Of a stretch of DNA of 41,094 nt, positions 1 to 41,094 are shown in pieces (within the stretch, counting starts at the first letter, position 1; the number at the start of each line of letters is the position of its first letter). The position numbers and the translations under genes were made by a program. The DNA comes from Bacteroidaceae bacterium (lineage in GTDB: Bacteria > Bacteroidota > Bacteroidia > Bacteroidales > Bacteroidaceae), in assembly GCA_017651245.1 (NCBI GenBank), contig JAGCDQ010000058.1:1-41094 (forward strand), in the 5' to 3' direction. The notes beneath the pieces were generated by a model, which made no database searches, was not told the origin of the DNA, and was given only the letters and a program-made list of their open reading frames with translations.

Positions 1-1206
1 AACAACAGCACCCTGCTTGTGGCACTCCGTCAACGCCTTGGGTACAAGAGACCCTGCGTAAAGAATAAGATCAGCCTTTTCTAACATTTTTCTTCCGCGA
101 ACACTCACCAAGTCTGGGTCGCCAGGACCTGCACCCACAATTTCGATGTGACCGACGGAGGAGTTTAGAGTTGAGAGTTTAGAGTTTAGAGCGCGAAGAT
201 GCTGCTTGTCGATGGCAAGGGCTGCTGTCCAGTTCTTACCTTTCACTTTGGGGACGATGAGTTTGCCGTGATTAGAACCGAGGATGGCGGCTGCCTCGCA
301 GACGCTGGGCGTGCCCACATGCTTCTCGACAGTTGTGCTGGGATTGGGCACTTCCACCTGTGCCAGCTCTTCAGCAGTGAAGAACACCACTTCTTCGTCA
401 TATTCCTCCCGCAGTTCCTCCACAAAAGGCTCGTCGGCTTTCACGTCGATGGTGCAGTATTTCTTGGCACAGGGAAGGATGCCGCGATCAGCAAACGCTT
501 GGTCTATTTCGTCGTAAATGCTTTCATAATCATCAGGATGGTGTGCCAGACCAAAGCCAATCGTCCCCACCATCGGAACGAAGTGAAGCACCAGCATATT
601 GTCAGGATAAGGTAGATTGAACGGTGACACGATGATGAGGAGTTTGTACTTCTTTGGGTCGGCCTCTCGGATGTTGTTGATGAGGGTCACATGGTCTGGC
701 AGCGTCTTCTCCAGATAGTCCGTTCCCTCATCTCTCACATCCATCAGCAAGGCAGTGGGTTGAAGATTGACAAAGGCGAAGATGCAGTCATTCATATCCT
801 CAACGTCGCTGGCAATCGGCCAATCGAAACGCTTCTCCAACGTGTCGAGCGCCCACAGACCAGCGTTGTCGCTTTGGGTGGTGATGACTGGATTGGCTCC
901 GAGGATGGTAGCCACTTGGTGTGTCAAGTTATTGGCTCCTCCTACATGACCGGACAGTACGGAAATGACATGCTGCCCCAAACTGTCGATGCAAACGACG
1001 GCAGGGTCGGTGTGCTTGTCTTTGATATATGGAGCGATTGTGCGTACACAAATGCCCATGGCTCCGATGAAGATGAAAGCATCAAAGTCGTTCCACTGAC
1101 CCCCTACATCTGTGCGCTGTATGCTTTTGGCACTCAACTGACGCTGGAGCATGAGTGCGATGTCTTTGCCAGCCTCGTTGATTTGTATGACTGCTATTTG
1201 CTGCAT
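1..1206 (-). CDS. cbiG-cobM: CbiG-CobM/CbiF fusion: cobalt-precorrin-5A hydrolase + precorrin-4 C11-methyltransferase (partial)
   Basis: The frame is open from an ATG at 1206 to the left edge (402 codons seen, 3' end missing). The first ~340 residues look like CbiG, which opens the ring and releases the C20 fragment as acetaldehyde. [13 protein letters not shown] motif, an LSGHVGGAN motif and a C-terminal IGFGLAHH segment are visible. After a low-complexity linker (SKLSTLNS) the protein restarts as a tetrapyrrole methylase ([15 protein letters not shown]), matching CobM/CbiF, which methylates C11. CbiG points to the anaerobic, early-cobalt route. The start overlaps the end of the upstream CbiET gene by 13 bases (1194-1206), so translation is probably coupled. 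The linker is encoded by 7-bp tandem repeats at 161-191. The missing part should hold the rest of the methylase domain. Confidence 0.9.
161..191 (-). repeat. 7-bp tandem repeat inside the CbiG-CobM linker
   Basis: On the plus strand this reads as four heptamers, GAGTTTA, GAGTTGA, GAGTTTA, GAGTTTA, followed by GAG. It encodes the Ser/Leu/Asn/Thr-rich linker between the CbiG and CobM parts. The frame is intact at the present copy number. Because 7 is not a multiple of 3, one unit more or less would put the methyltransferase out of frame. Confidence 0.9.
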
Positions 1207-9447: not shown

Positions 9448-9454
9448 ATAATAA

Positions 9455-9583
9455 AGAATTGAAAAAATGAAGAATTGAAGGATTAAAGTTGTTTTCTCCC
9501 ATATTTTTTTATTCATTCTTTCATTTTTTAGATTCTTTATCGTATTTTTCAATTCTTCAATTTTTCAATTCTTCGATTTTTCC
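9455..9583. repeat. AT-rich 8-bp tandem repeats in the divergent promoter region
   Basis: Units related to GAAGAATT (9456-9485, plus strand) and their complement TCAATTCT/TCAATTTT (about 9549-9581) form two short arrays in opposite orientation between the divergent cobalamin operon and cbiA. The same 8-bp unit returns behind the peroxidase gene at 28236-28262. Confidence 0.7.
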
Positions 9584-10884: not shown

Positions 10885-10898
10885 CCTCCCCTACAGCC

Positions 10899-10933
10899 TT
10901 TAACCTATAACCTTTAACCCTTAACCTTTACAG
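10899..10933 (+). repeat. 7-bp tandem repeat (TTTAACC type)
   Basis: Units TTTAACC, TATAACC, TTTAACC, CTTAACC, then the degenerate TTTACAG. The same unit returns at 27516-27557. Confidence 0.85.
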
Positions 10934-10983: not shown

Positions 10984-11094
10984 CATACTCTAGCCATACT
11001 CCAACCAGCCTTTTGAGTATGGCTAGAAGCAACCTAGGAGCAACCTAGGAGCAACCTGGGAGCAGCCTGGGAGCAGCTTAGAGTATGGCTAGAG
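10984..11094. repeat. 11-bp tandem repeat framed by a 14-bp inverted repeat
   Basis: Four copies of an 11-bp unit (AGCAACCTAGG, twice exact, then two variants) occupy 11028-11071. They lie between CTCTAGCCATACTC (10988-11001) and its exact inverse GAGTATGGCTAGAG (11081-11094). A further 12-bp copy lies at 11015-11026. No gene is present here. Confidence 0.85.
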
Positions 11095-32160: not shown

Positions 32161-32925
32161 TCACATTTTCACTGCATCTGCAAGGGTGTACAAAACTCCA
32201 CTTGCAGCATCATAATACTTCAATGTCGCCGACTCCCCTGCGGTACGGCCATAGAGGATGAGCGGCGTGCTGCCAAACGGTGAGAGCGTTACCGTGCCAC
32301 GACACTCTGTGCCAACGAAAGCACCTACCCTATTGCCCGCAACAGGAGTGATGCCAACCTTTGACAGGACTGTCTCTGCTTCCACCGACTTTACAACGGG
32401 ATATTTGGCAGGACCCAGTGTGAATTCAGGGATGTAATCCTCGTCAATGCCGATGCTCACATCCGAGTCCAAGCTGATGTTGTCAGACAGCGTGAAGATG
32501 TGCTTCAACGTCTTGTTGTAGTATTGCAGTGTCATGTTCACCGTTTCCGAACCCGTCTCGTTGCCCCAAACCTTGAGCAGATACTTGGTGTTGCTCGACT
32601 CGTTGCTGCCCACAATGACGGCAGGACTTTCCAGTCCGCGCAGTTCATCATTGATGAAGAGCGCCATCATATCATCCTCGGAGACGTACGGCTGCAGTTC
32701 CTCTTCAATCTGCACCTTCAGGATGGTCCAGTTCTCGTAGATGGATGAGAAGTCTGGCTCCGTCCAGTCTGGAAGCTCTTGGTCGTTGCTCCAGTCTATC
32801 TGCCACTCGGGTGCTTCACTGACATTGGTGGCAGAGTAGCCAGCATTCGAACTGTCGTCGTCGCTGCTGCAAGCCCCCAGAATGAGGCTTGCCAGCAGAA
32901 CGAGCATTAATTTTGTCTTATTCAT
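32161..32925 (-). CDS. Lipoprotein with two copies of a domain shared with the giant protein
   Basis: This 254-residue protein begins MNKTKLMLVLLASLILGAC, with lipobox LGAC and then SSDDDSSN, suggesting an outer-membrane, possibly surface-exposed lipoprotein. I chose ATG 32925 rather than 32949 for the clean signal. Two repeats are seen: MMALFINDELRGLES followed by a strand-rich stretch, and VGAFVGTECRGTVTL with a like stretch. The same pattern (VGVFDNENVCHG; LVAYANGEECG) is present in the giant protein just upstream in the same direction. The gap to that gene is 34 bases. Joint function at the cell surface is an inference. Its binding target is unknown. Confidence 0.8.
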   Translation of the reverse strand: MNKTKLMLVLLASLILGACSSDDDSSNAGYSATNVSEAPEWQIDWSNDQELPDWTEPDFSSIYENWTILKVQIEEELQPYVSEDDMMALFINDELRGLESPAVIVGSNESSNTKYLLKVWGNETGSETVNMTLQYYNKTLKHIFTLSDNISLDSDVSIGIDEDYIPEFTLGPAKYPVVKSVEAETVLSKVGITPVAGNRVGAFVGTECRGTVTLSPFGSTPLILYGRTAGESATLKYYDAASGVLYTLADAVKM

Positions 32926-32959
32926 AATCTTAAATAGTATTTGTTTCAATCATATTTCT

Positions 32960-33280
32960 TTACTTCACTAACATCTTCTTGCCGTTGAAGATATACACAC
33001 CTGGGGTGGTGGGGCGGCGTTCACCCACCCGGACGCCCGTGAGGGTGTACCAGATACCAGCCTCGTACTTAGCATCAGTGTGTTCGAAGTTGATAGCTGT
33101 AGGCTCGTCAGGAGTGCCGATGACAGCATTCTTCTGGAAAGTCATCACCTCATTGGTGGAAGCGACGATCTCACCATCACGTTCGATGGCGAACCAGATA
33201 GGCTGCTGCGCGTCGCCAGCGATGCTGAGGAAGAAACCAGTTGAGAGTTGAGAGTTCTGCTGTTCCGCATTCTTCGCCAT
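32960..33280 (-). CDS. Out-of-frame C-terminal part of the giant surface protein
   Basis: This frame encodes the natural end of the giant protein. From about 33238 onward it reads GFFLSIAGDAQQPIWFAI, completing the domain that began with LVAYANGEECGTAE in the other frame. It ends in a linker and GVYIFNGKKMLVK, a typical Prevotella surface-protein C terminus that may act as a sorting signal. The ATG at 33280 lies inside the giant gene and is probably not used. The frames differ by one base modulo 3. Removing a single 7-bp unit at 33239-33256 joins them as GTAELSTGFFLSIAGD. Confidence 0.8.
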   Translation of the reverse strand: MAKNAEQQNSQLSTGFFLSIAGDAQQPIWFAIERDGEIVASTNEVMTFQKNAVIGTPDEPTAINFEHTDAKYEAGIWYTLTGVRVGERRPTTPGVYIFNGKKMLVK

Positions 33281-36200
33281 TAGCGTATGCTACCAGCTGA
33301 TCGCCCTCTTCCACTTCGAAGCCCTCAACCACGGCACTCACACTCATGGTGTTGCATGACCTTTCACCTTGAGCCTTGAACCTTGAACCCTGAGACTGTG
33401 ACCAGTCTTCACGGAAGTTGCTGTTCAGGTCGTAGTATGGATAGGTGAACGAAGCTTCCTTCTCGCCCTTGCGGAGCAGCATGTAACCCTCACCAGGCTT
33501 CATGTACTGCAAGCTTCCGCGCCAGCGTCCTACGTTGCCCGACTTGGTGAAGTAAGCAAACTCGGTGTGACTCTTGATCACGTCGCCTTCCTCAGCCTGG
33601 TCGTAGTAGTCGCTCAGGGCTGTTTCTACCGTCAGGTTCGTCATCGGCGTGTAGCCAATGGCGTTCCAGCCTTGCTTCAGCGTGATGGTGCGTGCATCCT
33701 TCTGCTTAATCACGGCGCCACCGATTGGGAAGGTGCAATCCTTCTGAACCTTGACGGCATACGCATTCTTCGGAGAGATGACCACATTCTTCGTCTCGCC
33801 TGATGCCAACCAGTGCTTGTTCTCATAGTTCAGCGTCAGGTTGCTGCTCATGTCGGTCAGGATGTCACCTTCCGTCCAAGGCATGCTGTCGAGCAGCTTG
33901 TTCAGGTCGAACAGGCTCTCGCTCTGTACGTTGAACGATACCCAGTTCCAGCCCTTGTTCAGTTTGAAGTTCTGCACGAAGGCTTCTCCGCCGTTGAAGC
34001 GTACGGGCTGATCGGTGCCCAACATCGCATCTTTTGTGAACATGATGGTCTTTTTCTCCGTGTTAGGAGTCAGCACAATCTCGCGTCCTGTGCTGTATTG
34101 CCACAGGCGGAAGTTCAGCTTGCGACCGCTCGTTTCATTGTCATAGACGGTCAGATACAGACCCGTCTCGCCCGTCTGAGCATCGTGGCTGATGTTCGCA
34201 TAACCGTGGCATACGTTCTCGTTGTCGAACACACCCACGATGTCGCGTGTATCAGTGTCCAGCTCATCATAGAGATAAACCTGACCACTGATGCTCATGG
34301 AGTTCTCCAGTAGTTCGCTGTCTATGTTCTGAGCCCATTCTGGCTGCTCGCCCTCCACCGTCAGGTTGAGGTAGAACGGTTCGATGATACCCTCCTCGTC
34401 GGTCAGATAGATGATTTCGTTGTAGGTACCGATGTTCAGATCCTTGCTGACCGTTGCCGTGACATAATCCATCATCTGCGGTGCGATCACCTCCTCGTAT
34501 TTGTCGAGCGTCATCCACTTCGGGCAGTTCTCAATCGTGTAGGTGTGGCTGGAAGCGCTGTTGTTGTAGAACGGCAGTTCGCATTCCTCACCGCTACCAT
34601 ACTTAATCGTGACGTCCAATTTGTTCACCAGCCACTGCAGACTGCTATTGTTCACATAGTAGCAAGCCGTCTGCGGCGAAGCCATCGTGTTGCCGTTTCT
34701 GTCTTCCACGTCACGCAGCGTCACATAGATGTTGCGGTGGTTGAGTTTGGCAGCAGGCTCGTCAATCTCTACCATGATCTGGTTGCCCTTGCCGATGAAC
34801 GAGAAGTTCAGGTTCGTCACTTCCTCGTTGGGCACCACAGGAGCTGCCATTGTGGCATCGATGTACTGCAGGATTTCGTCAACAGACTTGATGAAGACGT
34901 AGTCACGAGCAGGAATGTTCGTAGGCTCACCGGTCACAGGGTCTTCCTGATAGCGCATATTGCCATCGGGATCTAAGTAGATCTTCTTGCTGTAGGCGTA
35001 TGGCGTCATGATGATCTCGTTAAACTCATTGCGTTCCTGATGGTCGAAGCCCAGATAGGTCAGCAGACCCTTCTCGTCACCGTTAGGACTCTTCGTCGCG
35101 TAGGTGCTGATGAGCGTCTGCGGCAGTGCCTGTGCAAAGAATGCAAGTTCGTCGATGTTACCCTTCAGCGGAGCAGTGCCGTCGTACACATCACCATCGA
35201 TTTCGGCGCGCGTAGCACCGATGAGCGGATAGCCGCCAGTGATGCCGCCGAGGTTTTCTGCCTCGAAGGTCTTCACCAGTTCCTTGTCCATGTAGATGTT
35301 CGCCACGTTGTGAGCGCGGTTCACCGTCATGGCGTAATGGTGCCACTGGTTGTCGCTCCAGTCGCCCGGAACCTGAATAGCAAAGCCGTTCGAACGGTAC
35401 ATCAGTTTCTCAGCTTCGAATCCGATGTTGAACAGGTGCTGGGCACCGCTTTCTTCCTTCTGTCCGCTTCCGTTAGAGATCAGCGTACCGCGACCCTCAG
35501 CGTCGGTCTTGAACCAGAACATCAGGGTGTAGTCTTGCTCAGCGGTGCGGTTCAGGGCATCCTGCGTCAGTTCCAAACCCTTGTCTGCCTTCTCCAAGCG
35601 CAAGGACATACCGTGTGGCATTGCCCACGATGCACCTATCAACTTGGCATTGGCACCCTGGGTGTGGTCGGTGGCATAGTCGCCGGAGCCTTCGTTCATC
35701 GGGTAGTAATCCACGAGATCCTTCTCGTAACCCGTCAGACGGTGCAGGCCGTAGGTGCTGAAGAGTCCTACATCCATGGCGCGATACCACAGGCGAGTCT
35801 CCATCATGCGACCTTCGTAGTATTGGCTCTTGTTGCGGTTGGTTTCGTTGGTGCGTCCGAAGATGAGCGGACCCGTACCATTATACAAACTCTTGAGCTT
35901 GTTGCCCTCACCGATGATCTTGTCATCGCAGTAGAACATCAGTATGCTGTCCTGCTGGTTGATGACGACACCCACCTGACGGAAGGCGCCTGGCTCGATG
36001 GCCTTCGTTGACGTGAAGGTCTGGTCATTGATCACGGCTTGCAGCTTGAAGTCCTTAGTCAGCCACAGTTGCAGCGTGTCACCGTTCGTACCGTGCGAGA
36101 ACAGCGGCATGTCGCGTCCCGTCTCGGCAGGCTTGATCCTCAGGTCGATGGTCAAATCCTTGCCGCTGAAGTTGCGCTTAGCCTCGCACTCCACGCTGGC

Positions 36201-39200
36201 TTTGCCTGTAAACTGCACGCTCACCATCTCAGAGAGGTTGTCGTTGTTCACCTCGCCCTTCACTTCGAAGTTGCTGATGGCAGAGAGGTTGTTGTATTCA
36301 ATGTCTTCAGAGAAGTTGAAGATGATGTCGTCGCCACTGGTCAGCAGACCGTTCTTCGGCTCTGGTGTGCCGAACAATTGCGGACGACGTGTGTCCTTAA
36401 TACCGCTGATAATCTTCGACGGCGTGGTGAGGAATGTTCCACCGTTGCGGCAGAAGAGTACGGCTCGCAAGTCGTAGCTTCGCTCTATCGTCCAGCCCTC
36501 ACCGTAGAACTCAGTGACGATGTTGTCATTCTCAGGAATCATCTTACATACACCGTTGGCATTGGCCATCAGTGCCTCGTCGGCATAGTACGAGCAGAGG
36601 TTCGTCCAAGCATCGTCGCCACGCTGCGTTTCCTTGTACTGGAACTCGATGTGGTCAAAGTTATGCTGGTGACGGTCGAAGTCGCTGATGGTGACAGGGA
36701 TGTACCAGCCGCGCTTCGGGTCTTGCTGGGCACTGGTGTTCAGCACCCACTTGTCGGATGGAACTGAGATGTTCACCGCTCCAGCTTCGCGCAGGAAGTG
36801 TACATCGAACGTGGTGGTGGCGATGGCATGTTCAGCATCGCCAGGCGACATCAGGCCTACGGTCAAGCCCTCGTAGTCGAAGCCCTTACCGGCACGAACC
36901 TCCATTTCCAGCTGGGTGGTCACGCCCGGCACGAGGCTCACGGTCATACCGCCGGTGGTCAGCGTCTGTCCGTTCACACTAATTCTGGCACCATTCGGGT
37001 TCGCCTGGTCGGCAGCAAACAGTTGCATGACGCTCAGACCTAATGTAGCCTCAGGCTTCTCGCTCTCGTTGGCGAGGAATATCGTGAAGCGTGCCGGGTC
37101 ATTGACAGATACACCACTTACGCTATGCTTGTCGAGGCTGATCGTCGGATTGTCAATCTTCAGCGTACGCTCGTCAAGGATAGAACCAGCGTTGTAGAAG
37201 TGTGTTTTGCGCTCGTCCTCCCAAGGATTGGAGGTATAACCGCCACGGGTGCGGAACACGAAGCTGCAAGGTTCACCATGATCAGGAGCGTTGCTCTCTT
37301 TCTTCAGATAGTCCAGCGCGTCATTGTTCAGTTTCTGGAAATTGTAGTTGCTGAACACATCCTCCGGGTCGTACTTGCCTTTGCCATTAGTGGCATCAGC
37401 CATCGGCACACGATAGACGTCCACAGCCAGGCGGCTCGTAGGCGCAGCGGCGATGGTGAAGGATATCGAACGGTTGTACTCGTTGGCAATGCTGTTGGTG
37501 CCGATGGTTGTCGAGCTCAGTACGGGGGTCAGCGACCACCTGAAGTAGGTACCGCTAAATTTGAGGGACGTTTCCTGATTTTTAATTCCACCACCGCTCA
37601 CCGTCGGGTCGAGTTTCTTGAACGATTCCAGATAACCCAAGAGCGCACCTCCAAGGTAGTTGACGACGACAGAGGCTACCGTCGTACCGACACCACTACC
37701 CTTAGCATCGAAGTAGTCGGGCTGTACACCGTAGGGGAAGTACATCGACGTAGCGTTGGAGTAGCTGCTGCTGAACGTCTCGCTATAGTTGATGCCCTGT
37801 GCACCGGCTATATCGAAGCTTTGTACCAGATCGGTGGCATTCAGCTTCTCGCGCTCGTTCTGGGTGATCATCTTTGTCCATGCATAGATAATCTCGCTCT
37901 TCTCAACAATCTCGTCGGGACAGTCGGCCGGCGTCTTGCTGTCGGGCAGCACGATGACATAGTGGGTATATTCGTCGGCCGTCATTTTTTCCGTATTATA
38001 TTCCTTGTTCCTATAACCGAACTTCGGGTCGGAAGGCTCGCGCAGCGAGCGATAGATAGGCTTGCCCGATGCGTTGGCAGCACGCTTGGCTTCCTCCTGC
38101 GTACCTAAGAACATCAGGTCCATAATCTCCTTCGCCTTGGCTGGGATAATCTCTTCGAGTATCTGCTTCTGCGAGTAGATGAACTGCTGCTTGAGTTTCG
38201 GACCGTAGCCTAACGAGATATCGCGTACCAGGTGGTATATGTTGCCGTCTGCATCCGCACCTGCGGCAAGATGTACCAGTGTACCATATTTAGCGTATTG
38301 GGTCACATCGCCAGTCGTGTTGATCTGACCGATACCACCTGCTGCCAGACGCGCTTGATAGGCGCTGTCGGAAATCACGCAGATAGCCGACAACGGTCTC
38401 ACCTGTACGTTCTGCACCATACCGATATAGAGGTCGGCATCGGCACCCACCATCGACGGGTCGCCGCTGGTGCTGACTGCGTTAGAGAGCACCATGGTAT
38501 GCGACCATGCCTTGCTGCCGTTATAGTTGAATACAAGGTCTGTGTATGAGACATCTACCTTCTCGGCAGCATGCGTGACACCGTCGAATTCGCCTTCATA
38601 TGTATCGAGCAGGAATTGAACGTCGCCTTCTGTATAGCCGTTGAACCAGGTGAGCTTGTCGGCCAGCGAGAAGTTGAACATCACACCGCCTGACATCGAC
38701 AGATTCATGGCGTAGCTGTTGTTGAGCGTAGCACCCTTGGCAAGGGTCGTCGAACTGTAGCCTCCCGGCGGGTCGCGCAGGATGTCGAACAGCAGCGGCT
38801 GACCTTCAGTCAGCAGGTCCTTACCCGTGCCGATGGGATACATATTGAGGATGTAGCCATGCAGCGGCGCTGCCTCGAAGTGGGTACCGTCCTGCTCTAC
38901 GCTGAAGGTCACCGTCCTGAGGGCGTTCTCTATACCTACCGGCATGGCAACATGGTCGGCCTGCAGCGTGAAGGTGGCCTGTCCGTTGGCGTCTAAGCTC
39001 AACGTATCCTTCACCACACCGTTCTTAAAGCCATTGTGCATGGTGGCAAGACCACCGCCAACTTTCACATAGTCAATCTTCTCGGATGCCAAGTCATTGT
39101 TGTACGGATAGCGCTCTGCCACCTGCAACTGCATGTAGTACTTGCGTTCCAGACTGAATACGGGGAAGCCGAAGGTATAGGCAGCCTGTCCGTCTGCACC

Positions 39201-41094
39201 CTTATAAGCCAACGGCAACTGCACTTTGTTACCACTCGCTGTGCTGGCGTTATAGTTCTTGTCGCCTAAGTAGTCGAACGAGTCGTAGGTCAGCTGCTTA
39301 TACGTCAGCTCCACGGGGTTGTGGTAGATGCGGTTGTAGATGGCATAGTAGTTTGCCGTAGGATTATATTGGGTCTTGCCATCCACATCCATGAAGCTAC
39401 CCGTGTAGGTAGTGTCCTTCGGAGTGAGGCAGTCGGTCAGGTCGATGACCTCGCTGGCCTGTCCTTCCTGGAACAGGGTGGGATAACCCTGGCAATAAAC
39501 CTGTTGCACCTTCCAGCGTACGGGCGGCAGCAACAGCTCGTACTCACCAGTGGTCTGGTCGGGTGTCACCTCCATGCGCTTGCGTAGGGTTTTCACCTTC
39601 GTCTGGTGACCTTCGCCACGATGCTGATACGTTTCGTCGCGCTCGGTGCGTTCACGGTTCAGGTTATCATAGACCAACCACGACTTGGTGTCGCCCTCCA
39701 AAGCGAGAATCATCTGCAGGTTGTCACCCAGGTTGTTCTTCGACAGGTTGTTGCCCAATGGCAGGTTGCCTTGATCGTTACCGCCTACCACGCGACCTAT
39801 CAGTTTCACCTTCGTAGCATCCTGGAATTGGATACCTGCCACGTCACCGGTGAAATTCTTCGAGTACTTACCGTCGTTCACGAACCAGTGACCGTCCATC
39901 ACCACCTGGATGTTGTTGTTGCCAGGCATCACACGGAACGAGAATTGGCCTTCCTCGTCGGTCTCCACCAGTTTGCCAGTGGCGTTGTGGACCTTCTTGT
40001 TGTTCACAAGGAAGTTGACACCCTTCACAGGAATGGTCGTGCCTTCGTACATCACAACACCTGAGAAGCGCTTGCCGGTTGTGACGGTGAACTCATGTAC
40101 CGTCACGTCGTTGGTCTTGGCATCGAAGGTCACAGCATACTGCGGATTCTCGGCTTGAGCGACTGTGACCTCGTATGTGACGCTCGCTCCTCCCTGATAG
40201 GGCAGCTCGTCGGTTACGTAGTGTCCGCTCTCGTCGGTCGTGACGCTGGTATGCACGCTTCCACCATCGATGTTCACCGTTACGCCAGGAATGCCGGTGC
40301 CGTCGTTGAAGCGCACATAGCCCTCCAGACGACCAGTGTTCTTACATGCACCAGCCATCACATCGGTATAGGAGAAGTGCTCTCCCTCGCAGTCGGCTGT
40401 CGCGCGTACCTTATATTCATATTGCTTCAGCGGCGATACCGTCTTGTCCTCGTAGGTCATCTGGTCGAGTTGGGGTGATACATCCTCCCAAGCATCCTCT
40501 CCCTGACCTACTTCGCGGCGCATCACGACGAAGTAGTCGATGGGGTTGTCATCGCTGTTCCATGTCAGCACGACGCTGCTCTGATGAGTCTCTGCCAGCA
40601 GTTCCATGTCAATCTTACCCGTGCTAGTGTGGTAGAAGTCGGGCAGTGTTGGAGTCGCGATGTAAGGTGGATAGAACCAGTTCGTCGATGTGGTCGTAGG
40701 AACGACAGTATCGCCGTCCTTGGTCCATGTGCCGAGGTTCTCCAGTGCGCCATCCTCCGTGATGGCCGCCGAAGCTGACTGCATCTTGGGAACGGCCTTG
40801 CCGTCAACAACCTCCCAGTAGTCTTTACCCAGTGCCTCTACCATCTCGCTTGCGGTCATCGAGCCGTTGTACCAACGGTTGGTAGAATAGTTGTCGGTCA
40901 TCTTCGGCACCACCTTGCCTTCAATATCAACCTTCCAGTTGCCGGTACCCAACTGGGCAACCAAGTCGCTTGCCGACTTGTCACCTACCTGGTAGGCTTC
41001 CGTCCAGCAGTCATATCCGGTGACACCAATTTCAATGCTGGCGGAACGACGATCTACGGCGTGGTACGTCCAGTTGTTAGAACCGTATTGTCCG
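33177..41094 (-). CDS. Giant multidomain surface protein (partial, out of frame near its C terminus)
   Basis: The frame is open from the right edge, with no start in the window (at least 2,638 codons). Reading from the edge, there are two ~35-residue repeats ending in GKxVPKM (near 40900 and 40790), then an Fn3-like region (~40650-40370). Three carboxypeptidase-regulatory-like domains follow (GRLEGYVRFNDGTG, FSGVVMYEG, LIGRVVGG; ~40335-39700), then a long beta-rich centre. Two LamG-like jelly-roll domains are at ~36150-35770 and ~35620-35040. The end carries VGVFDNENVCHG and two GWN repeats (KGWNWVSFNV, QGWNAIGYTP). The frame then breaks in a 7-bp repeat at 33239-33256 and ends in the shadow residues WFLPQHRW. 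The architecture suggests a secreted adhesin or glycan-binding protein, but no enzyme domain is recognised. Confidence 0.82.
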   Translation of the reverse strand, partial: GQYGSNNWTYHAVDRRSASIEIGVTGYDCWTEAYQVGDKSASDLVAQLGTGNWKVDIEGKVVPKMTDNYSTNRWYNGSMTASEMVEALGKDYWEVVDGKAVPKMQSASAAITEDGALENLGTWTKDGDTVVPTTTSTNWFYPPYIATPTLPDFYHTSTGKIDMELLAETHQSSVVLTWNSDDNPIDYFVVMRREVGQGEDAWEDVSPQLDQMTYEDKTVSPLKQYEYKVRATADCEGEHFSYTDVMAGACKNTGRLEGYVRFNDGTGIPGVTVNIDGGSVHTSVTTDESGHYVTDELPYQGGASVTYEVTVAQAENPQYAVTFDAKTNDVTVHEFTVTTGKRFSGVVMYEGTTIPVKGVNFLVNNKKVHNATGKLVETDEEGQFSFRVMPGNNNIQVVMDGHWFVNDGKYSKNFTGDVAGIQFQDATKVKLIGRVVGGNDQGNLPLGNNLSKNNLGDNLQMILALEGDTKSWLVYDNLNRERTERDETYQHRGEGHQTKVKTLRKRMEVTPDQTTGEYELLLPPVRWKVQQVYCQGYPTLFQEGQASEVIDLTDCLTPKDTTYTGSFMDVDGKTQYNPTANYYAIYNRIYHNPVELTYKQLTYDSFDYLGDKNYNASTASGNKVQLPLAYKGADGQAAYTFGFPVFSLERKYYMQLQVAERYPYNNDLASEKIDYVKVGGGLATMHNGFKNGVVKDTLSLDANGQATFTLQADHVAMPVGIENALRTVTFSVEQDGTHFEAAPLHGYILNMYPIGTGKDLLTEGQPLLFDILRDPPGGYSSTTLAKGATLNNSYAMNLSMSGGVMFNFSLADKLTWFNGYTEGDVQFLLDTYEGEFDGVTHAAEKVDVSYTDLVFNYNGSKAWSHTMVLSNAVSTSGDPSMVGADADLYIGMVQNVQVRPLSAICVISDSAYQARLAAGGIGQINTTGDVTQYAKYGTLVHLAAGADADGNIYHLVRDISLGYGPKLKQQFIYSQKQILEEIIPAKAKEIMDLMFLGTQEEAKRAANASGKPIYRSLREPSDPKFGYRNKEYNTEKMTADEYTHYVIVLPDSKTPADCPDEIVEKSEIIYAWTKMITQNEREKLNATDLVQSFDIAGAQGINYSETFSSSYSNATSMYFPYGVQPDYFDAKGSGVGTTVASVVVNYLGGALLGYLESFKKLDPTVSGGGIKNQETSLKFSGTYFRWSLTPVLSSTTIGTNSIANEYNRSISFTIAAAPTSRLAVDVYRVPMADATNGKGKYDPEDVFSNYNFQKLNNDALDYLKKESNAPDHGEPCSFVFRTRGGYTSNPWEDERKTHFYNAGSILDERTLKIDNPTISLDKHSVSGVSVNDPARFTIFLANESEKPEATLGLSVMQLFAADQANPNGARISVNGQTLTTGGMTVSLVPGVTTQLEMEVRAGKGFDYEGLTVGLMSPGDAEHAIATTTFDVHFLREAGAVNISVPSDKWVLNTSAQQDPKRGWYIPVTISDFDRHQHNFDHIEFQYKETQRGDDAWTNLCSYYADEALMANANGVCKMIPENDNIVTEFYGEGWTIERSYDLRAVLFCRNGGTFLTTPSKIISGIKDTRRPQLFGTPEPKNGLLTSGDDIIFNFSEDIEYNNLSAISNFEVKGEVNNDNLSEMVSVQFTGKASVECEAKRNFSGKDLTIDLRIKPAETGRDMPLFSHGTNGDTLQLWLTKDFKLQAVINDQTFTSTKAIEPGAFRQVGVVINQQDSILMFYCDDKIIGEGNKLKSLYNGTGPLIFGRTNETNRNKSQYYEGRMMETRLWYRAMDVGLFSTYGLHRLTGYEKDLVDYYPMNEGSGDYATDHTQGANAKLIGASWAMPHGMSLRLEKADKGLELTQDALNRTAEQDYTLMFWFKTDAEGRGTLISNGSGQKEESGAQHLFNIGFEAEKLMYRSNGFAIQVPGDWSDNQWHHYAMTVNRAHNVANIYMDKELVKTFEAENLGGITGGYPLIGATRAEIDGDVYDGTAPLKGNIDELAFFAQALPQTLISTYATKSPNGDEKGLLTYLGFDHQERNEFNEIIMTPYAYSKKIYLDPDGNMRYQEDPVTGEPTNIPARDYVFIKSVDEILQYIDATMAAPVVPNEEVTNLNFSFIGKGNQIMVEIDEPAAKLNHRNIYVTLRDVEDRNGNTMASPQTACYYVNNSSLQWLVNKLDVTIKYGSGEECELPFYNNSASSHTYTIENCPKWMTLDKYEEVIAPQMMDYVTATVSKDLNIGTYNEIIYLTDEEGIIEPFYLNLTVEGEQPEWAQNIDSELLENSMSISGQVYLYDELDTDTRDIVGVFDNENVCHGYANISHDAQTGETGLYLTVYDNETSGRKLNFRLWQYSTGREIVLTPNTEKKTIMFTKDAMLGTDQPVRFNGGEAFVQNFKLNKGWNWVSFNVQSESLFDLNKLLDSMPWTEGDILTDMSSNLTLNYENKHWLASGETKNVVISPKNAYAVKVQKDCTFPIGGAVIKQKDARTITLKQGWNAIGYTPMTNLTVETALSDYYDQAEEGDVIKSHTEFAYFTKSGNVGRWRGSLQYMKPGEGYMLLRKGEKEASFTYPYYDLNSNFREDWSQSQGSRFKAQGERSCNTMSVSAVVEGFEVEEGDQLVAYANGEECGTAELSTLNWFLPQHRWRRAAAYLVRHRT
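33239..33256 (-). repeat. 7-bp tandem repeat at the frame break of the giant protein
   Basis: Plus-strand units AGTTGAG, AGTTGAG and AGTT. Reading frames on either side differ by one base, which is exactly the remainder of 7 divided by 3, so the present state has one unit too many or two too few. Confidence 0.9.
33360..33394 (-). repeat. Second 7-bp tandem repeat in the giant protein
   Basis: Plus-strand units CCTTTCA, CCTTGAG, CCTTGAA, CCTTGAA, CCCTGAG. It encodes a linker (SQGSRFKAQGERS) before the last domain. The frame is intact here. The tract is about 100 bases upstream of the frame break. Confidence 0.85.

Follow-up and report, generated by a model that had tools for sequence, protein, structure and literature searches.

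A heptamer array at the frame break of a giant surface-protein gene in a Prevotella-like bacterium, possibly left by recent slippage

Introduction

The closest described counterparts of the locus reported here are the hmw1a/hmw2a contingency loci of Haemophilus influenzae, where tandem 7-bp units are likewise tied to a surface-protein gene and where, in the portion of PMC2651432 that treats them, a change in the length of the heptanucleotide tract alters either the reading frame (hmw1a of PittAA) or the promoter. The same portion gives most of these tracts 6-38 units and also describes one heptanucleotide locus with a single unit in two strains. Heptanucleotide repeats dispersed as short arrays are known as well, namely TAACTGA repeats in Beggiatoaceae, Cyanobacteria and five Bacteroidetes, according to the sections of PMC4679880 on these repeats, and GGGNATC repeats in Xanthomonas and Nostoc, according to those of PMC4692102. 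That units of 7 bp favour polymerase slippage was proposed by Mrazek and colleagues in 2007, as cited in PMC4679880. Regarding protein export, the part of PMC11969387 that deals with the short T9SS signals of Prevotella intermedia reports lengths of 43-55 residues, a PT/GI cleavage context, a GxY motif followed by Ile, and a basic motif.

The window analysed here, a stretch of 41,094 nucleotides that makes up one whole contig of a draft genome (2.83 Mb in 77 contigs, 86% complete), contains a giant surface-protein gene whose reading frame is left within an array of 7-bp units. Unlike the hmw1a/hmw2a tracts, this array has two full units, below the threshold of three units used for 7-bp repeats in the relevant portion of PMC2651432, and similar arrays occur all over the genome. 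It also departs from the TAACTGA and GGGNATC repeats, which the cited sections of PMC4679880 and PMC4692102 place mostly in intergenic regions or describe as depleted in coding sequence, in that many unit types are present here and several of them lie in frame in genes. The explanation favoured below, with a rough probability of 0.55, is a recent and potentially reversible slippage in one of many heptamer arrays, which would leave the sequenced allele of a probable T9SS cargo in the OFF state.

Results

Position of the frame break

The features concerned are the following:

32161 to 32949, minus strand: downstream lipoprotein-like gene; similar ORFs lie 3' of the giant gene in the relatives shown
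32960 to 33097, minus strand: probable short T9SS C-terminal signal, 45 residues plus stop, after PT (AINF...GVYIFNGKKMLVK)
32960 to 33238, minus strand: 3' end of the gene, conserved and lying in the next frame; it encodes the later strands of the last beta domain together with the C-terminal signal
33177 to 33239, minus strand: out-of-frame tail after the array, 20 codons plus stop
33177 to 41093, minus strand: gene of the giant surface protein, visible over 2,638 codons and with its 5' end past the contig; CarboxypepD_reg and Laminin_G_3 domains
33239 to 33256, minus strand: heptamer array, (AGTTGAG)2.6 on the plus strand, reading (CTCTCAA)n on the coding strand; the frame changes here
33366 to 33393, minus strand: second 7-bp array, imperfect (ACCTTGA x4 on the plus strand, 85% matches), in the preceding linker and within the open frame

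The giant gene is represented by a minus-strand ORF at 33177-40964 (2,638 codons) that is open as far as the contig edge, where its 5' end is cut off and the N terminus of the protein left incomplete, and that stops at 33177; CarboxypepD_reg and Laminin_G_3 are the domains scoring above cut-off. No further stop interrupts the visible 2,638 codons, and this part of the gene shows one lesion only. Its frame runs as far as ...GTAELSTLN and then adds 20 unrelated residues before the stop, while an overlapping ORF on the same strand (32960-33280) encodes the conserved end ...GFFLSIAGDAQQPIWF...GVYIFNGKKMLVK, the two ORFs sharing exactly the 104 bp of 33177-33280. When both are compared with the C-terminal profile, the 2,638-codon frame matches positions 1-82 (33243-33500) and the 109-codon frame positions 79-177 (32963-33268), and the change of frame is confined to 18 bp within a frame of 7,917 bp.

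These 18 bp are the AGTTGAG array itself (2.6 copies, 100% identical), a non-triplet tandem repeat within coding sequence whose coding strand is free of stops in every frame. To judge from the sequence, the frame break of the giant gene almost certainly falls in this array. The initial annotation had placed the frame switch in (AGTTGAG)n, and 33239-33256 is indeed the spot where the 2,638-codon frame is left; its frame arithmetic also holds, seven not being a multiple of three and the two frames lying one position apart. A 14-base pattern of the array, with two mismatches allowed, has five matches in the window against 0.49 expected, three of them lying in another array at 161-191. The window carries more tandem arrays, at 161-191, 9454-9582, 10897-10930 and 11023-11075 (7-, 8-, 16- and 11-bp units).

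Conservation of the 3' end

Relatives were found by a contig scan with an upstream-domain alignment and the peptide patterns WNWVSFN and QYMKPGE; since these motifs lie upstream of the array, the scan is without bias for intact frames. It returned 277 relatives, of which the best 80 were kept. These are loci rather than species, some of them sharing a genome and some being near-identical, and they bear the names of Prevotella, Alloprevotella, Prevotellaceae, Bacteroidaceae and Bacteroidales drafts, many with a ruminant source in the title, together with one isolate, Xylanibacter brevis ATCC 19188. The stretch from loop to tail is read in a single frame in 80 of these best 80 of 277, all belonging to other species and having other loops than the window. 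A further alignment set the window beside eleven loci, ten taken from other genomes of the genus and the eleventh from a different contig of its own genome, and 24 related loci were translated. A hypervariable loop lies between AYANGE-type and YLSIAGD-type motifs and is read in a single frame in the loci that cover it; it could be located by pattern in 75 of the best 80 of 277, 12 of which duplicate the sequence of another.

The C-terminal profile (last 177 positions) was run against 45 genomes of the genus, that of the window included. The 56 matches listed above 100 bits comprise the two pieces of the window, 53 full-span matches (from profile position 5 or lower to 173 or higher in one frame) and one covering 2-144, and the only split gene among them is that of the window. 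The genome itself encodes other family members with open frames of 3,931, 3,608 and 2,906 codons. The tail in the other frame can be taken with very high confidence, on these alignments, to be the conserved end of the gene, and the earlier claim that the real end of the domain lies in the next frame (ORF 32960-33280) is borne out by the best 80 of 277 relatives. One locus considered as a second split member, L263 on contig C33 of genome G022, was rejected, being a tail remnant behind unrelated DNA and without a heptamer array; its 95-codon tail ORF precedes a lipoprotein-like start.

In the AlphaFold model of an intact relative (L064; mean pLDDT 63, weak), on which the position of the loop was set by alignment, the loop lies between strands 77-83 and 97-104, so that the break would remove the later strands along with the tail. 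A fold search with this C-terminal model gave no match at E <0.001, the best being 2.0e-3. Assignment of the C-terminal region to DUF5678 was likewise discarded (best E 0.0078, below cut-off), other weak domain matches being weaker still. The last 108 bp of the gene (window 32960-33067) match the tails of other giant proteins, namely L026 at 82%, L027 at 80% and L016 at 79% over 93 bp; the bodies of these three match the query weakly or not at all, which suggests exchange of 3' modules.

A probable T9SS signal

After PT, the tail in the window shows A-I, GVYI and a basic end. It thus resembles the short signals of Prevotella intermedia, as the part of PMC11969387 on these signals describes them, in having PT with one residue and then I after it, in GxYI and in its basic end, and in a length of 45 residues if cleavage falls at the assumed site. 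Among the best 80 of 277 relatives, GxY(I/L) with a basic end is found in 80/80 loci and a loose P..I.F-type pattern in 79/80. With the cleavage site assumed, the signal measures 45 residues in the window and 42 in 59 of 79 homologues, the others having 43-51 save two of 70 and 77. Most homologues therefore fall one residue under the range given in that part of PMC11969387. The tail by itself (about positions 130-177) ends many otherwise different proteins among those listed, with open frames of 61 to 2,070 codons.

SprA (family TIGR04189) is encoded in the genome of the window (2645 bits), as it is in 36 of the 37 genomes searched and in none of 14 control genomes. The tail produced no match to the curated T9SS sorting-domain models tried (NCBIfam and Pfam, E up to 1). 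On balance the tail is very probably a T9SS signal. The earlier suggestion that the C terminus directs secretion or surface attachment thus gains from the features of a sorting signal and from the presence of SprA, and finds no backing in the curated models tried.

Age of the break

Read in its own frame, the tail of the window has a median pN/pS of 0.38 (80 pairs), compared with 0.34 (5-95% 0.24-0.52) for 398 other pairs, and its tail-to-upstream pN ratio is 1.27, compared with a median of 1.02 (5-95% 0.69-1.72). The tail is hence without signs of free drift, which points either to a recent shift or to a tail that is still produced on occasion. The frame break is probably recent, as estimated by a constraint test whose range is broad and which has no power to date a break of very recent origin. 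No further genome of the species turned up.

Heptamer arrays across the genome

In 359 kb of the genome, 26 exact period-7 runs (each with at least 11 matching positions) were counted versus 0.0 in three order-2 Markov simulations, and each of the other periods from 1 to 30 has at most 9 runs in the same 359 kb. Per 100 kb there are 7.2 such runs in this genome, 2.8 across the 80 homologous loci and 1.1 in other-family stretches, the latter taken from 20 of 24 listed genomes and differing in G+C (0.49 vs. 0.40). A larger sample of 649,750 bp of the genome holds 40 exact arrays, ten of which could be classified by scoring the coding frame on both flanks, the other 30 not being classifiable. Six of the ten (in five genes) lie in an open frame, three are in phase with stops and one changes the frame, this last being the array of the window. 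By a mechanical rule, ORFs of 150 codons or more enclose 16 of the 40, a count that takes in an ORF at window 174-191 that is probably spurious and some arrays possibly preceding the true start; the array of the window falls outside the 16, since its frame closes too shortly downstream. The orientation is stop-free in 15 of these 16, which is not independent evidence, since a long ORF could not contain an array with stops. Two in-gene cases were dropped: one beside a PrmA-like gene (L032:14213-14234), where the array probably lies before the true start codon, and one beside a LuxR-like gene (L045:19009-19026), where it may precede the true start. Heptamer arrays that start at, or extend over, the stop codon of mechanically called ORFs occur at L035:1322-1341, L035:4564-4593 and L050:16912-16936. 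With the search words used, no report of heptamer arrays in Prevotella was found in the library covered.

In-frame arrays were found in the genes for the GcvP P-subunit, an RluA-like pseudouridine synthase, a PriA-like protein (provisionally so named from its translation), an HD-domain protein and others. Heptamer arrays are thus present in housekeeping genes too, and one array by itself is no sign of a switch. Repeated DNA in frame in protein-coding genes is also a property of the Rickettsia palindromic elements, which resemble the present arrays in this respect and differ from them in being palindromic and longer, those here being tandem heptamers. Relative to solved structures, six extra residues stand at the array in GcvP (1wyt) and fourteen in the pseudouridine synthase (2i82).

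Among relatives of the genus, the offset in loop length from this genome is a multiple of 3 in 12/12 cases for GcvP, 29/29 for the RluA-like and 23/23 for the PriA-like gene, as is a requirement of any working gene. GcvP loops, whether or not they contain an array, match the length in this genome or fall 3 bp short of it, the PriA-like linker measures 113 bp in 14 of 24 sequences, and both have the same length in this genome and in G026, the nearest relative found; given these steady lengths, arrays there seem to replace the loop and not to lengthen it. The only clear length step in the three genes is that of the RluA-like loop, which is 21 bp, or three units, longer here than in G026. In the PriA-like linker the unit varies by species (CTCTCAA in this genome, CTCAAAC and CTGTCAA in two relatives; L178:7769-7804, L240 and L242), as if the loop had been replaced or homogenised at constant length. 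In the GcvP loop (L037:10865-10884), the CTCTCAA array of G001 (L188) is as long as the array-free loops next to it in the alignment, again as if by replacement. GC-rich, partly palindromic in-frame stretches are seen as well, at sites where other species have heptamer arrays (the loop of L117 and L068; L261, the PriA-like linker of G013).

Arrays in the same loop of other species

A different heptamer array, in frame, occupies the homologous loop in five of the best 80 of 277 loci:

L064: AAGCGTG
L069: AAGAGTG
L082 and L098 (near-identical): TCAATTG
L121: TCAATTA

The segment from PGEGY to the stop contains 11 period-7 runs (9 or more matches) in 43,662 bp, compared with 2 in 348,327 bp of upstream sequence within these ORFs; the p of 2e-9 for this excess treats the 11 arrays as independent, four of them being in L121 and two in L134, and L082/L098 being near-identical. 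The 3' part of the gene is a favoured site for heptamer arrays, which are in frame in the relatives.

Discussion

Slippage as favoured here would act in a Prevotellaceae-like lineage whose tandem 7-bp arrays form and vary at numerous places, intergenic as well as in the loops and linkers of genes. As seven is not a multiple of three, each unit gained or lost inside a gene alters the exit frame, and selection would mostly leave frame-keeping array lengths in genes. The array of the window, which sits in the loop joining two strands of the last beta domain, would be caught at a frame-breaking length; translation would exit it in the wrong frame and stop 20 codons on, and the product would lack the C-terminal signal, probably for T9SS surface export, as well as the later part of that domain. 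Such a step would be reversible in principle. With only two full units, slippage should be slow, which counts against this account.

The contig might also misrepresent the cells, its array length being a minority among them or absent altogether. A draft genome in 77 contigs and 86% complete, a gene that runs off the contig end and the finding that no gene but that of the window is split among the 56 matches listed above 100 bits all agree with such a consensus or assembly artefact, which nonetheless appears rather unlikely, no other stop occurring across 2,638 codons and an array of 18 bp being far under the usual short-read length. Permanent decay, that is, a young pseudogene whose 3' end is to be lost further, has a parallel in the G022 family member cut to a 95-codon tail ORF behind unrelated DNA, an instance of loss in the family; it is very improbable for the window, where the visible part has one lesion and the tail is without loss of constraint. 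The 104-bp overlap of the two ORFs could be read as room for translational recoding or transcript slippage to join the frames, a possibility that is hardly credible in view of the join, where no slippery heptamer or long homopolymer is seen by eye, and of the aligned and translated relatives, which are without such a join.

The initial annotation had raised phase variation by slippage of the repeat, with an assembly error or a plain mutation as the alternative, and the array at the break and the conserved tail are consistent with that. A selected switch, by which slippage of the array would make cells of one population alternate between a surface-displayed and a truncated form of the giant T9SS cargo, would fit a surface-type gene with a non-triplet repeat, a stop-free array and a conserved tail in the other frame, the more so as its loss may be tolerable in a genome with other family members that are open and full-length; a precedent is offered by H. 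influenzae PittAA, whose hmw1a ORF contains a 14-unit heptanucleotide tract linked to a frameshift, according to the relevant portion of PMC2651432. Against it stand the two full units found here, when repeated H. influenzae tracts have 6-38 in that portion of PMC2651432, the single frame of all of the best 80 of 277 loci, the five with another heptamer array included, and the occurrence of heptamers in non-surface genes, and selection for switching is on the whole unlikely. A broader proposal would have heptamer arrays form a genome-wide diversity-generating layer, in which species-favoured units that are stop-free on the coding strand are copied or homogenised into the same loops and vary those of enzymes and T9SS cargo, a minority of steps turning cargo OFF; we regard this as decidedly unlikely.

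If the array does toggle, the giant surface protein of a Prevotella-like bacterium would be switched through loss of its export tag, a mode of switching for which few if any T9SS cargo proteins are known to us. Even without toggling, frame-cycling heptamer arrays are present inside both housekeeping and surface genes of this lineage, and they make the origin of loop variation testable by comparison of strains. In the one near-identical pair with comparable arrays (L082/L098) the array length is equal, and for period-7 arrays outside the gene in the near-identical pairs L070/L075 and L128/L129 the flanks do not align. Within the gene, the loci L128 and L129, 97% identical, have loops that differ by 54 bp of 9-bp units, in frame.
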